A stretch of 64,000 bases of DNA, taken from NCBI RefSeq assembly GCF_006351965.1, contig NZ_CP040932.1:744001-808000 (forward strand), written 5' to 3'. The position numbers were made by a program, and so were the translations under genes. Each line of letters begins with the position of its first letter. Position 1 is the first letter of the stretch. The notes beneath the pieces were generated by a model. The model was not told the DNA's origin, searched no databases, and worked only from the letters and a program-made list of their open reading frames with translations. The stretch comes from Oceanicola sp. D3. Its GTDB lineage: Bacteria; Pseudomonadota; Alphaproteobacteria; Rhodobacterales; Rhodobacteraceae. This document shows, piece after piece, positions 12,086 through 51,834 of the stretch.

Positions 12086-13507
12086 TCAGCTCCAATCCAT
12101 CGCGTACAGCCGATGCAGGGCGATCCGCTCAACCTGATAGCAGGCCTCGGCCATCTCCTCGCCCTTGGTGTTATTCATTCGTTCATGAAACTTGCGGATG
12201 ATACCGGCCTTGTCGTGGTCTTTCACCGCGATGATGAAGGGAAAGCCGTTCTTGGCCATGTAGCGCTCGTTAAGGTCCATCAGCTCGCGGCGCTCTTCGT
12301 CTGTCAGCGCGGTCAGCCCCGCGCCCTGCTGTTCGGCGTTGGAGTGCTCGGTCAGCCGGTCGGCCCTGGTGATCGCATCGCCAAGGTCAGGGTGCGCGCG
12401 CAGCACGTTCAGCCGCTCATCCTCGCTGGCGCGGCGGAACACGCGAGCCATCGCGTTGTGGATGCCCTCGGGCGTATCGTGCGCCGGGCCAAGCTCCAGC
12501 TTGTGGGCGCGTTCGGCCACCCACGCAGAGTGCTCGAACACTTCGCCAAAGCGGTTGGTGAAGGTGGTCAGGTCCATCTGGCTCGGGCGGGCCGACATGC
12601 GCTTGGGCGGGTGCGTCATCGTCCAGTGGCGGGCAATGTCGATCCGCCGGGCAAACCAAACGCCCTCCTTGGCCATCGCATGGTCGATAAAGCGTTTGAT
12701 CGCCATAAGCCGCCCCGGACGGCCCGCAAGGCGGCAATGCAGGCCGATGTTCATCATCTTGGCCGAGCCCGCCGAGCCCTCGGCATAGAGCACGTCGAAG
12801 GTATCCTTGAGGTAGTTCAAAAACTCCTGCCCATCACCAAAACCCGATGCGGTGGTGAAGCGCATGTCATTGGCCTCCAGCGTGTAAGGAATGATCAGCT
12901 GATCCTTGCCGGAAATATGCACCCAATAGGGCAGATCGTCAGCGTAACTGTCTGACAAATAGGCAAAACCGCCCATCTCCGTGGCGATCTGCACGGTATT
13001 CTCCGAGCAGCGCCCCACGTACAGTCCACGAGGCCGCGCGCCCACCACCTCGCGGTGCAGGGCAATCGCCTTTTCCAGATGCTCGCGCTCTTCGGCTTCG
13101 TAGAAGTCTCTGTAATCAATCCATTTATAGCCGTGGCTCGCAATCTCCCACCGCGCCTCGCGCATCGCCGCAACCTGATCGGGCGAGCGGGCCAGCGCGG
13201 TGGCCACGCCATAAACGGTCAGCGGAATCTTCATCGCGGTGAACAGCCGATGCAGCCGCCAAAACCCCGCGCGGGCCCCGTATTCATACATCGATTCGAT
13301 GTTCCAGTGCCGCTGGTTGGGCCATGGCTCCGCGCCGATCACATCGCTCAAGAACGCTTCCGATGCCTCATCGCCATGCAAGATATTGTTCTCGCCGCCT
13401 TCCTCGTAATTCAGCACGAACTGCACCGCGATCTTTGCGCCATTCGGCCATGCTGCATTAGGCGGGCGGGGGCCGTAGCCTCGCATATCCCGGTCGTAAC
13501 GGTCCAT
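12086..13507 (-). CDS. puuE: Fused allantoinase (PuuE type) and OHCU decarboxylase
   Basis: A 473-residue two-domain protein. Residues 1 to about 300 are a polysaccharide-deacetylase-fold PuuE-type allantoinase (RDMRGYGPRPPNAAWPNGAKIAVQF, HGYKWIDY, GLHCRLAGRPGR). Residues from about 315 are an OHCU decarboxylase with the catalytic RAHPDLGD, SNAEQQGAGL and NGFPFIIAVK motifs. OHCU decarboxylation yields S-allantoin and the first domain opens it to allantoate, so one chain covers two successive purine-breakdown steps. The ATG at 13507 has GGAG upstream. It is divergent from an ABC ATPase gene. Fusions of this kind are known in related bacteria. Confidence 0.92.
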   Translation of the reverse strand: MDRYDRDMRGYGPRPPNAAWPNGAKIAVQFVLNYEEGGENNILHGDEASEAFLSDVIGAEPWPNQRHWNIESMYEYGARAGFWRLHRLFTAMKIPLTVYGVATALARSPDQVAAMREARWEIASHGYKWIDYRDFYEAEEREHLEKAIALHREVVGARPRGLYVGRCSENTVQIATEMGGFAYLSDSYADDLPYWVHISGKDQLIIPYTLEANDMRFTTASGFGDGQEFLNYLKDTFDVLYAEGSAGSAKMMNIGLHCRLAGRPGRLMAIKRFIDHAMAKEGVWFARRIDIARHWTMTHPPKRMSARPSQMDLTTFTNRFGEVFEHSAWVAERAHKLELGPAHDTPEGIHNAMARVFRRASEDERLNVLRAHPDLGDAITRADRLTEHSNAEQQGAGLTALTDEERRELMDLNERYMAKNGFPFIIAVKDHDKAGIIRKFHERMNNTKGEEMAEACYQVERIALHRLYAMDWS

Positions 13508-13667
13508 CTGGCGTCTCCAATCCTCAAGTGGCCCAATCGCACGGCCTGTCCGCCCAAGTTTTTACCCCCGCCGGGCGAATGGCAAGCGCCTGCCGTCACG
13601 CCATGTGTGTCAGGCATTGAGAATTGCGTGGCATGGCATAAGCTTGGGCGAAACAAGGGGGCCGCGC

Positions 13668-15497
13668 ATGTTGGACGAGACCGAAAAGAAACCGCTGGTA
13701 GATGTCAGCCACCTCAGGGTGGAATTTGATACCAACGACGGGCTCGTTGTGGGCGTTGAAGACGTGTCGTTTCAAATCGACCCGGGCGAAACCCTTTGCG
13801 TTGTGGGTGAGAGTGGCTCGGGCAAGTCGATCTCCTCGCTCTCGCTCATGCGGCTGGTCGAGTTCGGCGGCGGGCGCATTGCGAATGGCACGCTGAACTT
13901 CCGGCGCGAAGACGGCGAAGCGATCGACGTATCCAAGGCCGAAAACAAGCTGATGCGCGATATTCGCGGCAACGAGATCGCGATGATCTTTCAGGAGCCG
14001 ATGAGCGCGCTGAACCCGGTGTTCACCATCGAGCGTCAGCTCACCGAGGGGCTGCGCGTCCACAAGAAAATGAGCAAGTCAGCCGCTGCCGCCGAGGCGC
14101 TGGAGCTGCTCCGGCGCGTGCGCATCCCCGAGCCCGAGCGGCGGCTCAAGCAGTATCCTCACGAGCTTTCCGGCGGCATGCGCCAACGCGTCGTGATCGC
14201 CATGGCCCTCGCCTGCGAGCCGCGCCTGCTCATCGCCGACGAGCCCACCACCGCGCTGGACGTGACGATTCAGGCCGAGATCCTCGCCCTGATCGACCGC
14301 CTCAAACGCGAAACCGGCGCCGCCGTGCTGTTCATCACCCACGATATGGCAGTGGTAGCGCAGGTGGCTGATCGCGTGGTTGTCATGCTCAAGGGCAACA
14401 AGGTTGAGGAAGGCCCCGTTGAGCAAATCTTCGAGGCCCCCCAGCACCCCTACACCCAGGCACTCCTTTCCGCTGTGCCCAAGCTGGGCGAGATGGAAGG
14501 CAAGGCCGAACCCGAGCCGCTCAAAATCCTCGGGCGCGAGATCGAGGCCCACCCGGTGGTTCCGGCGGCAGATCGCAAGGTGCTGCTGGAGGTGAAAAAC
14601 CTCACCACCCGCTTCCCGGTCAAGGGCGGGCTACTGCGGCGCACGCAGGCCTACGTTCATGCCGTTGAGGATGTATCCTTTGAGCTGAAAACATCCGAAA
14701 CCCTTTCGCTGGTTGGCGAATCCGGTTGCGGCAAGTCATCCTGCGGCCGCTCGATCCTGCGGCTGGTCGAGCCGCAGTCGGGCGAGGTGCGCCTTGGCGG
14801 CAAGGACGTCATCGCCATGAGCCAGCGCGAGCTGCGGCGGGCGCGTGCCGACATGCAGATGGTGTTTCAGGATCCCTTTGCATCGCTCAATCCGCAGATG
14901 CGCTTGATGGATCAGGTCGCCGAGCCGATCCTCAACTACGGGCTGGCCAAGGGCTCCGAGGTGCAAGACCGCGTTACAGCGCTCTTCGACAGGGTGGAAC
15001 TGCCCCGCAGCTTCCTGCGCCGCTTCCCGCATGAAATGTCAGGCGGCCAGCGCCAGCGCGTCGCCATCGCCCGCGCCCTCGCGCTCAACCCCAAGCTCAT
15101 CATCGCAGATGAGGCGGTCTCGGCGCTCGACGTGTCGATACAGGCCCAAGTGCTCAACCTGCTGATCGAGCTGCAGGCCGAGCTTGGCATCTCGCTGCTG
15201 TTCATCAGCCACGATATGGCCGTTGTGGAGCGGGTGAGCCATCAGGTCGGCGTCATGTACCTGGGCCGGATCGTCGAGATCGGCCCCCGCGCCGCCATCT
15301 TCGAAAACCCGCAACACCCCTACACCCGCGACCTGATGAAGGCCGTGCCCGTGGCCGACCCACGCCAGCGCAAGAGCGAGCACGAGCTAAACTTCAAGCC
15401 CATCCCTTCGCCGGTTTTCCCCGTGGGCCACGAACCCGCGCCATCCGTTTACGATGAGGTAGCACCTGGGCATTACGTTCTGAAGCCGCTGGACTAG
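13668..15497 (+). CDS. Dipeptide/oligopeptide-type ABC transporter, two-domain ATP-binding protein
   Basis: A 609-residue tandem ABC ATPase of the DppD-DppF/GsiA kind. Domain 1 has Walker A GESGSGKS (47-54), signature LSGGMRQR, and Walker [13 protein letters not shown]. Domain 2 has [17 protein letters not shown] and [12 protein letters not shown]. Each ends with an oligopeptide-type HPY segment ([20 protein letters not shown]). It drives uptake of peptides or related solutes across the inner membrane. No permease or binding protein is next to it here; the divergent neighbour is the ureide enzyme. The ATG at 13668 follows AGGGGG. Only three bases separate it from the SRAP gene. Confidence 0.92.
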
Positions 15498-15500
15498 CCG

Positions 15501-16112
15501 ATGCCCGGTCGGCTCTTACTCACCCGACCGGCGGAAGAGGTGGGCGCGGCCTTCGGGGTCGAGATGCCGAAAGGGCAGGGGCCTCGGGCCAACATCGCGC
15601 CCGGGCAAGAGATCGTGGTGTGGGACGGTGCGGCGCTGCGGCTGATGCGCTGGGGGATGATCCCGGTAGGCCGGGTGAACGCGCGGGGCCGCCCGGTGAT
15701 GGAAACCATCGTTAACGCCCGCTCCGAGACGGTCTTTGCCAAATCCGCCTTCACCGGGGTGCGGCGCGGTGTCGTGCCCTGCGATGGCTGGTATGAGTGG
15801 ACAGGCAAGGCGCGGCGCAAGCAACCGTGGCGGATTGCGCCAAAGGACGGCGGGCTTCTGGGCTTCGCGGCCATCTGGGATGTGTGGAAGGCCCCCAACG
15901 GGGCCGAGCTTGCAGAGGTCGCCACGGTGACCTGCGAACCCAACGGCGATGTCGCCCCGATCCATCACCGCATGGGCGTCATCCTTGCGCCGCACGAGTG
16001 GCTCATCTGGTGTGCGGGCAACATGGCCGAGGCCGTGAACCTCTGTCACCCATGGCCAGACGGGCGGCTGAAGCTCGCCCATGCCGAAGGCGTCGACTGG
16101 ACCGGCGCCTGA
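15501..16112 (+). CDS. SRAP (HMCES/YedK-like) domain protein lacking catalytic Cys2
   Basis: A 203-residue SOS-response-associated peptidase fold. The family motifs are present: the NIAPGQ loop, MRWGMIP, NARSET, RRGVVPCDGWYEWTG, and PIHHRMGVI near residue 155. SRAP proteins normally begin Met-Cys-Gly-Arg, and Cys2 makes the covalent bond to abasic sites in single-stranded DNA. Here the start reads Met-Pro-Gly-Arg (ATG CCC GGT CGG), so the cysteine is missing while GR and the rest are kept. If this start is right, cross-linking chemistry should be lost. It is nearly overlapping with the upstream ATPase gene. Confidence 0.85.
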   Translation: MPGRLLLTRPAEEVGAAFGVEMPKGQGPRANIAPGQEIVVWDGAALRLMRWGMIPVGRVNARGRPVMETIVNARSETVFAKSAFTGVRRGVVPCDGWYEWTGKARRKQPWRIAPKDGGLLGFAAIWDVWKAPNGAELAEVATVTCEPNGDVAPIHHRMGVILAPHEWLIWCAGNMAEAVNLCHPWPDGRLKLAHAEGVDWTGA

Positions 16113-16153: not shown

Positions 16154-16357
16154 ATGTCTGTTGCACGCGTTACCGAAATTATCTCATCGTCGACCAAGTC
16201 TTTCGAGGACGCCACCGAGAAGGGTGTCGCCCGCGCATCCGAGACGCTCAAGAACGTTCAGGGCGCATGGGTGAAAGACATGAAGGTGACGGTCGACGAC
16301 GGAAAGATTTCCGAATACCGCGTCGGCCTCATGGTCACCTTCGTGCTTGACGACTAA
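16154..16357 (+). CDS. Dodecin family flavin-binding protein
   Basis: A 67-residue protein matching dodecin: MSVARVTEIISSSTKSFEDATEKGVARASETLKNVQGAWVKDMKV with the Trp that stacks on flavin (W38 region) and a closing beta strand ISEYRVGLMVTFVLD. Dodecins form dodecameric shells that store riboflavin, lumichrome or FMN. GGGAGAGA lies six bases before the ATG. It may be co-transcribed with the SRAP gene, 41 bases upstream. Confidence 0.9.
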   Translation: MSVARVTEIISSSTKSFEDATEKGVARASETLKNVQGAWVKDMKVTVDDGKISEYRVGLMVTFVLDD

Positions 16358-17464: not shown

Positions 17465-18028
17465 ATGCAACGAAATATTCGCCCCCAGCTTGCCGCAGCG
17501 CCCGTGTTCTTCACCGTCTGTCTCGCAGAGCGTGGCACCACCCTGCTGATCGACGGCCTCGCGGTGCTGCGAGATGCCGTGCGGCATGTAAAGTCCTACC
17601 GCCCCTTCGACATCCTCGCCTTCGTTGCCCTGCCCGACCATCTCCATTGCGTGCTGGCGTTCCCCGAGGACGATCCGAATTACTCCCAACGCTGGGGCAG
17701 CATCAAGGCCCGCTTCAGCCGCGAGGCCCGAAAGGCGGGGCTCGTCCCGCCATGGCCGACGGCGGATGCCGAGGCGCAGCGCGGGCTGTTCCGCAAGGGC
17801 GAGACGGGGCTATGGCAAAAGCGCTTTCGGGAGCATCACTGCCGTGACGAGGCGGATCTGCAAAACCATGTTCGCTATTGCTGGAACGATCCCGTGAAGC
17901 ATGGGCTTGTGGAGAGGCCGCAGGACTGGGCAGCAAGCTCGTTCCATCGGGAGGTCCGGGCGGGGAAGGTTGGCGCGAGCTGGCAAGGACGCGGCGCAAA
18001 CTCGGCGCGATGCGGGCAAGCCGCCTAG
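17465..18028 (+). CDS. REP-associated tyrosine transposase (RAYT), first copy
   Basis: A 187-residue single-domain Y1 transposase of the RAYT group. The HUH motif is LPDHLHCV (His59, His61) and the catalytic tyrosine is Tyr138 in HVRYCWNDPVKHGLV. FFTVCLAERG at the N-terminus and WAASSFHREV near the C-terminus are family traits. It is intact. Unlike the copy at 34928, no GTAG-hairpin element lies next to it, and no good ribosome binding site precedes the ATG at 17465. RAYTs are usually single-copy domesticated genes, so two divergent ones in 18 kb are worth noting. Confidence 0.88.
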   Translation: MQRNIRPQLAAAPVFFTVCLAERGTTLLIDGLAVLRDAVRHVKSYRPFDILAFVALPDHLHCVLAFPEDDPNYSQRWGSIKARFSREARKAGLVPPWPTADAEAQRGLFRKGETGLWQKRFREHHCRDEADLQNHVRYCWNDPVKHGLVERPQDWAASSFHREVRAGKVGASWQGRGANSARCGQAA

Positions 18029-50839: not shown

Positions 50840-51834
50840 AGCGAGGCCCCCACCATCATCGCCACGTCCACCAGCCGGTGCGCATAGCCCATCTCGTTGT
50901 CATACCACGCATAAATCTTCACCTGCGTCCCGTTCACCACCATTGTGGAGGGCGCATCAACGATGCTGGAGCGGGTGTCATTGGTGTAATCGGTCGAAAC
51001 AAGCGGCCGGGTCTCATAGCCGAGAATGCCCTTCAGCTCCCCTTCAGAGGCCACGCGGAACATCTCGTTCACCTCCTCGGCGTTCGTCTCCCGTTCCACC
51101 TCGAAGACGCAATCGGTCAGCGAGGCGTTCAGCAGCGGCACCCGCACCGCATGGCCATTCAGCCGCCCCTTCAGCTCGGGGTAAATCAGCGTAATCGCCG
51201 TGGCGCTGCCCGTGGTCGTCGGGATCAGCGAGTTCAGCGCCGAGCGGGCCCGGCGCAAGTCCTTAGCGGGCCGGTCCACGATGGTTTGCGTGTTGGTCAC
51301 GTCATGGATCGTGGTGATCGAGCCATGCCTGATGCCCAGCCCCTCGTGAATCACCTTTACCACCGGCGCGAGGCAATTGGTGGTGCAGGAGGCGGCGGTG
51401 ACGATGCTGTGCGCCTCGGCGTCATAGCTCTCGTCATTCACCCCGATCACGATATTCGCCGTCGGCCCGTCCTTCACCGGGGCCGACACCACCACCTTCT
51501 TCACGCCCGCCACGAAGTAGGGCGCCAGCTTGGCCTCGCTCTTGAACACGCCGGTGCAGTCGATCACCACGTCAACGCCCTCAAGCGGCAACTCGCCCAA
51601 GTCGCGCGTGCCGATGAACGGCAGCCGCACGCCATCAATCGTCACGCTCTCCTCATCACTCGCAAATTCCGCATCCCAGCGCCCGTGCACCGTGTCGAAC
51701 TCCAGCAGATGCGCGTGCATCGCCGCATCGCCCACCGCGTCGTTGATCCAGGCAATCTTTGCGCCCTTCTCCAGCAGCGGCTTCAGGGCAAGCTTTCCGA
51801 TCCGGCCAAGGCCGTTCACAGCATAGGCGGTCAT
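50836..51834 (-). CDS. gap: ArsJ-associated glyceraldehyde-3-phosphate dehydrogenase
   Basis: A 332-residue [20 protein letters not shown] nucleotide-binding start, catalytic Cys150 in TAASCTTNC and the His region [35 protein letters not shown]. In arsenic operons this enzyme uses arsenate in place of phosphate and forms 1-arseno-3-phosphoglycerate for ArsJ. It is a variant distinct from glycolytic GAPDH (short NADPH-like loops). The start (51834) overlaps the stop of the ArsR-ArsC gene by one base; the stop overlaps arsJ. Confidence 0.95.

Follow-up and report, generated by a model that had tools for sequence, protein, structure and literature searches.

A Pro2-type SRAP paralogue clade in Rhodobacteraceae with a second, coupled change in the catalytic pocket

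The Cys residue at position 2 of SRAP proteins is described as absolutely conserved (PMC3765255) and as invariant (PMC9436759). An SRAP gene that begins Met-Pro-Gly-Arg therefore raises the question of whether its start codon has been misread, whether the gene is decaying, or whether it belongs to a stable group of proteins with a different chemistry. Such a gene lies in the window examined here, a stretch of 64,000 nt from Oceanicola sp. D3 (GCF_006351965.1, NZ_CP040932.1, positions 744,001–808,000 of the forward strand). The features that bear on its reading are as follows:

13605..15497, + strand: peptide-type ABC transporter ATPase, the gene preceding SRAP; 3 nt separate its stop codon from the SRAP start
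15501..16112, + strand: Pro2-type SRAP gene, 203 aa (ORF, Pfam, orthologues)
15504..15506, + strand: Pro2 codon CCC where Cys2 is expected (bases; Pro in 113/113 clade proteins)

Reading of the Pro2 gene

The bases at 15501–15512 are ATG CCC GGT CGG, which encode Met-Pro-Gly-Arg; these codons and the 203-aa ORF bear out the first-pass annotation, which had called residue 2 an unambiguous Pro. Because the stop codon of the preceding gene is so close to the ATG, there is no other start for the SRAP gene: a single in-frame codon, CCG, separates the upstream TAG from the ATG. A different upstream start yielding Cys2, named in that annotation as one result that would overturn it, was examined and is excluded by this stop, two codons upstream.

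The same annotation had described the SRAP fold as complete, and NARSET, VPCDGWYEWTG and PIHHRMG were all found in the window protein, which matched Pfam SRAP (PF02586) with 146.8 bits against a curated cut-off of 27.1. It had overlooked that the PIHHRMG motif is itself altered, with Gly159 where the compared Cys2 proteins have Pro. In a Pfam scan at E values up to 0.001, SRAP alone was returned and Fpg/Nei domains were absent; for the two Pro2 proteins scanned against the NCBIfam models, none exceeded its own cut-off. In profile, fold and pocket the window protein is an SRAP protein, and it lacks the Cys2 that defines the thiazolidine-forming SRAPs.

Membership, range and genomic company of the Pro2 clade

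The family search covered 198 Rhodobacteraceae genomes, one per genus, of which 148 gave any match. It returned the window gene and 24 orthologues at 54–63% identity, aligned from residue 1, with the next identity at 42%. All 25 start with Pro2, and the five next-best matches (L029–L033) all carry Cys2. From named genomes, the best 80 of 341 related stretches were fetched, and Pro2 was present in 80/80. Among these best 80, start codons were ATG (66), GTG (12) and TTG (2), the genera included Ruegeria, Sulfitobacter, Tateyamaria, Roseobacter, Silicimonas and Vannielia, and the closest relative was that of Vannielia litorea (90%). The order search gave matches above 300 bits in 42 of 195 genomes (next match, 144 bits), all 42 with Pro2. 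Since the genomes listed in that search belong throughout to the window's family, the class search was used to judge the wider range; there, of 289 genomes, only the 4 Rhodobacteraceae genomes gave matches above 300 bits (next, 143 bits). The fetched loci (132, some fetched twice) comprise 113 distinct clade proteins, every one of which has Pro2.

In the plasmid and phage collections, no match reached 60% identity. A pattern and profile search of 398 phylum genomes found no Pro2 SRAP outside Rhodobacteraceae: the pattern matched 28 times in 27 genomes (reversed-pattern control, 7), and the profile search on all matches fetched recognised SRAP in five only, all from the window's family. Applied to 394 family genomes, a canonical-body pattern matched 5 times in 4 of them (control, 1), and G063 was the only source of a Pro2 SRAP; both patterns are limited to genes that start with ATG and carry a fixed second motif, so that other forms would escape them. 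Two G745 matches, SRAP by profile, were considered as Pro2 candidates and rejected, since the bases show the pattern crossing a stop into a GTG-Cys gene, which makes them Cys2. The Pro2 paralogue clade is confined to Rhodobacteraceae in the samples searched. The open-licence literature searched yielded no report of a Pro2 SRAP, and passages of PMC8041192 offered no information about the roles of individual residues.

Beyond the clade, the comparison set held 126 proteins. Of these, 74 are viral rows found through the string MCGR, those lacking it having been dropped, and L259 was located in the same way; these rows are therefore uninformative on position 2 and informative on residue 159. Residue 2 is Cys in 50 and Pro in one of the 51 non-viral proteins. 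Out of 228 matches, seven plasmid or phage records belonging to other groups were selected, and all seven have Cys2 together with Pro at the position corresponding to residue 159.

The genome of Oceanicola sp. D3 contains three SRAP genes: the window gene, a canonical MCGR copy (L001) about 26 kb upstream of it, and an MCNLY copy (L003). The second, Cys2-bearing SRAP whose existence the first-pass annotation had raised is thus represented by two genes. Within the genus, a Cys2 copy occurs in 7/7 genomes and a Pro2 copy in 6/7, the seventh genome being 87% complete. A second SRAP match was found in 22 of the 25 clade genomes of the family search, and the 20 second copies fetched (own genome and G181 left out) comprise 19 Cys2 proteins and one Pro2 protein, L268. 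The genomes with no second match are G146 and G078 (both 83% complete), which have one SRAP each, and G171, in which a second, partial SRAP is present. G063 has two SRAPs, both Pro2, and no Cys2 SRAP was found there; L303 and L306 are partial SRAP genes in Pro2-bearing genomes. The Pro2 copy is usually accompanied by a Cys2 copy in the same genome.

Conserved pocket, coupled change and phylogeny

The 113 distinct clade proteins were compared residue by residue with 125 distinct Cys2 proteins. The positions of interest map to the window as follows:

15672..15695, + strand: clade-specific Arg-rich loop R58-x-N60-A-R62-G-R64-P65 (alignment)
15714..15722, + strand: Asn72-Ala-Arg74 (YedK Asn75, Arg77; alignment)
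15795..15797, + strand: Glu99 (YedK Glu105; alignment)
15963..15977, + strand: His155-His-Arg157-Met-Gly159, the catalytic His (YedK His160) and the Pro-to-Gly switch (YedK Pro164; alignment)

Asn72, Arg74, Glu99, His155 and Arg157 are invariant in the clade (113/113) and align with Asn75, Arg77, Glu105, His160 and Arg162 of the YedK-like rows; Arg4 is kept in 112/113. In the clade, residue 159, four positions after the catalytic His, is Gly in 102 proteins and Ala in 11, whereas it is Pro in 125/125 Cys2 proteins; it is also Gly in L268, the sole other Pro2 protein. Trp67-Trp68 of the YedK-like rows is replaced by Gly57 (110/113) and Arg58 (113/113), followed by Asn60, Arg62, Gly63, Arg64 and Pro65, each at 113/113. 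By the cut-offs used, 25 positions are diagnostic for the clade, many of them within this Arg-rich loop.

An AlphaFold2 model of the window protein, built with 62 sequences (pLDDT 92.3, pTM 0.90), matched 21 SRAP chains in Foldseek at E values up to 3e-9, with no further match below 0.2. The 15 solved entries listed by VIA-align are all SRAP structures (Z 20.4–24.8) and include PDB 8d2m, the C2A mutant of YedK in its Schiff-base complex. For 14 of these entries the alignment begins with residue 2 of the model, paired with residue 2 of the solved chain.

The tree, computed from 92 chosen rows after removal of columns 2 and 159, recovered the Pro2 proteins as a clade with support of 100/99, a point that the first-pass annotation had proposed to check in related Rhodobacteraceae. 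Its proposal of a paralogue clade with another activity holds as regards the clade, given that support and the Cys2 paralogues in the same genomes; the other activity stands only as likely. L268 (with L291; G063 contig C52) was placed among the canonical family copies (100/98). It has a canonical body with Met-Pro-Gly-Arg and His-Asp-Arg-Met-Gly, and shares with the clade Pro2, Gly159 and some loosely conserved positions (37, 137, 146, 189); the Arg-rich loop is missing. Pro2 and Gly159 hence co-occur in two distinct protein bodies, the second being a singleton from a genus with one genome in the collection searched. The best tree requires two Pro2 changes, and a single origin appeared in 0/200 trees of a bootstrap that was not fully settled; an AU test does not reject a single origin (p 0.36). 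Either Pro2 arose a second time in L268, or L268 is what remains of an intermediate; if it shares the origin of the clade, the coupling of Pro2 with Gly159 would rest on one event.

A single ORF family on the same strand precedes the Pro2 SRAP in 60 of 80 loci (L054–L133), its end lying a median of 4 bases ahead of the start codon. In a set of 21 loci a family occupies that upstream place in 10, and its scanned representative is a GDSL-like esterase; FtsX-like permease and ABC ATPase genes lie upstream on the opposite strand. These arrangements suggest a fixed operon of the Pro2 SRAP with the upstream ORF family, probably a GDSL-like esterase, its identity in the 80-locus set being assigned by position. 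The 21 and 80 neighbourhoods, in which few neighbour families were scanned, revealed no recognisable repair gene as a constant companion. The motif GTTC-N7-GTTC, which we take to be the LexA box, is absent within about 500 bases upstream of the SRAP gene; its single occurrence in the window, at 51082, is close to the count expected by chance.

Other genes near the SRAP locus include a dodecin gene directly downstream (16154–16357, +) and, at 12086–13507 (−), an OHCU decarboxylase fused with a polysaccharide-deacetylase-like domain. The 187-aa protein encoded at 17465–18028 (+) matched no Pfam family at E values up to 0.001 and has an Asp-His-Leu-His motif reminiscent of REP-associated transposases.

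Proposed chemistry and its alternatives

The best explanation, to which we would give an even chance on the sequence evidence, is a stable second SRAP paralogue with an exchanged nucleophile that acts as a reversible crosslinker or AP lyase. Removal of Met1 would leave an N-terminal Pro in an SRAP pocket with retained Asn, Glu and His. By analogy with Glu105 and His160 of YedK, Glu99 and His155 would open the abasic sugar and Glu99 would activate the amine, and the secondary amine of Pro2 would attack C1', forming an iminium (Schiff base). Since residue 2 carries no thiol, a thiazolidine could not form there, so that the adduct would hydrolyse or beta-eliminate; the protein would then crosslink transiently or act as an AP lyase instead of trapping the site stably. 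Gly/Ala159 may accommodate the proline ring or reset the pocket, to go by its coupling with Pro2, and stable crosslinking would be left to the Cys2 paralogue of that cell.

Published work on two proteins provides the parallels. According to work on YedK (PMC9436759), the first nucleophilic attack comes from the alpha-amine of residue 2, and Glu105 drives Schiff-base formation; the C2A mutant forms the Schiff base and cleaves abasic DNA in a Glu105-dependent manner, with no stable crosslink. For Nei2, PMC11323726 states that the N-terminal Pro2 acts on abasic sites in ssDNA, that Met1 was not seen in the crystal and its removal was presumed by the authors, and that P2C is inactive. AP lyase activity through the N-terminal Pro of the clade is thus a prediction drawn from the chemistry and the YedK C2A result, and the clade looks like a natural SRAP-fold counterpart of the Nei2 chemistry. 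The first-pass annotation had offered a peptidase; we found no support for this, and the N-terminal Pro of the Fpg/Nei AP lyases is the fitting parallel. An unprotected AP lyase on ssDNA could be harmful to the cell, which counts against the lyase reading. So do the lack of a recognised repair gene among the few neighbours annotated and the lack of a LexA-like box upstream. Since an Arg-rich loop replaces the Trp67-Trp68 region, the substrate may differ, and the 25 diagnostic differences likewise mean that it may be other than abasic DNA; the loop and the non-repair neighbours leave room for another substrate.

Compared with the SRAP domain of YedK and HMCES (PF02586), the clade has the same fold, the Asn-Arg-Glu-His pocket and residue 2 as N-terminal end, and differs in the exchange of Cys2 for Pro, of YedK Pro164 for Gly/Ala and of the Trp67-Trp68 region for the Arg-rich loop. 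At 203 aa the window protein also differs from most Cys2 proteins seen (213–245 aa). It shares with YedK C2A (8d2m) a residue 2 that has no thiol, and hence would form a Schiff base without a thiazolidine. Unlike that mutant, a published lyase, the clade has a natural, invariant Pro2 with a secondary amine and a second, coupled change, and its lyase activity is predicted. The likeness to the Fpg/Nei AP lyases lies in the Met-Pro N-terminus and the proposed iminium chemistry at C1'; a sequence relation was not seen, Pfam giving only SRAP for the window protein. More tentatively, and with rather less than even confidence, we suggest that an SRAP trap became a lyase by a coupled switch (Cys2 to Pro, YedK Pro164 to Gly) and so converged, from an unrelated fold, on the N-terminal Pro chemistry of Fpg/Nei; this may have happened twice, in the Rhodobacteraceae clade and in L268.

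The other readings fare differently against these data. That the paralogue is decaying or non-functional, as implied by the earlier suggestion of a gene on its way to loss, is scarcely credible: dN/dS was 0.09–0.23 over the 11 pairs listed for the window gene and its five near relatives, of which two are alike, and the catalytic residues are retained in 113/113. The Pro2 clade is under purifying selection, and position 2 is encoded by each of the four Pro codons across the 80 loci (CCG 47, CCC 21, CCT 7, CCA 5). What speaks for decay is L349 (G219 contig C5), a clade gene interrupted after 40 codons by an in-frame TAG, which is a broken copy or an assembly error and is the only such case among the 42 order-search members. 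We also think it unlikely that loss of the thiol left a non-covalent binder that shields or competes for abasic sites or ssDNA without chemistry. Such a binder would fit the loss of Cys2 alongside the retention of Arg4 and Arg74 and the addition of the Arg-rich loop. However, Glu99 and His155 are invariant, and PMC9436759 reports that mutating their YedK counterparts impaired crosslinking and not DNA binding; plain thiol loss would, moreover, permit Ala or Ser at position 2, where Pro alone was seen.

An enzyme acting on another substrate (a free aldehyde, RNA or a modified nucleotide), with the N-terminal Pro as base or nucleophile, seems to us doubtful. Pro1 tautomerases follow a comparable logic. 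In favour of this reading are the conserved place beside a non-repair gene (60/80 loci; esterase representative, 10/21), the peptide-type ABC ATPase next to the gene in the window, and the rebuilt loop near the pocket. Against it stands the core pocket of an abasic-DNA enzyme, which is intact. A split nucleophile, in which the Pro2 iminium and the thiol of Cys145 would give a stable adduct by a new route, is very improbable. Cys145 (window codon 15933–15935) is present in 111/113 clade proteins against 4/126 others, but two clade members and L268 have Thr there, so Cys145 is not obligatory; it directly follows the conserved Thr144 on a strand, and its side chain probably points away.

On the preferred reading of a stable paralogue with an exchanged nucleophile, the clade keeps the SRAP pocket and has Cys2 swapped for the nucleophile of another lyase family, and would thus be a natural test of trapping versus cutting abasic sites. 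The coupled change points out YedK Pro164 as a second residue relevant to that choice. In contrast to the published view of Cys2 as invariant, the Pro2 clade cautions that not every SRAP protein should be annotated as a thiazolidine crosslinker.
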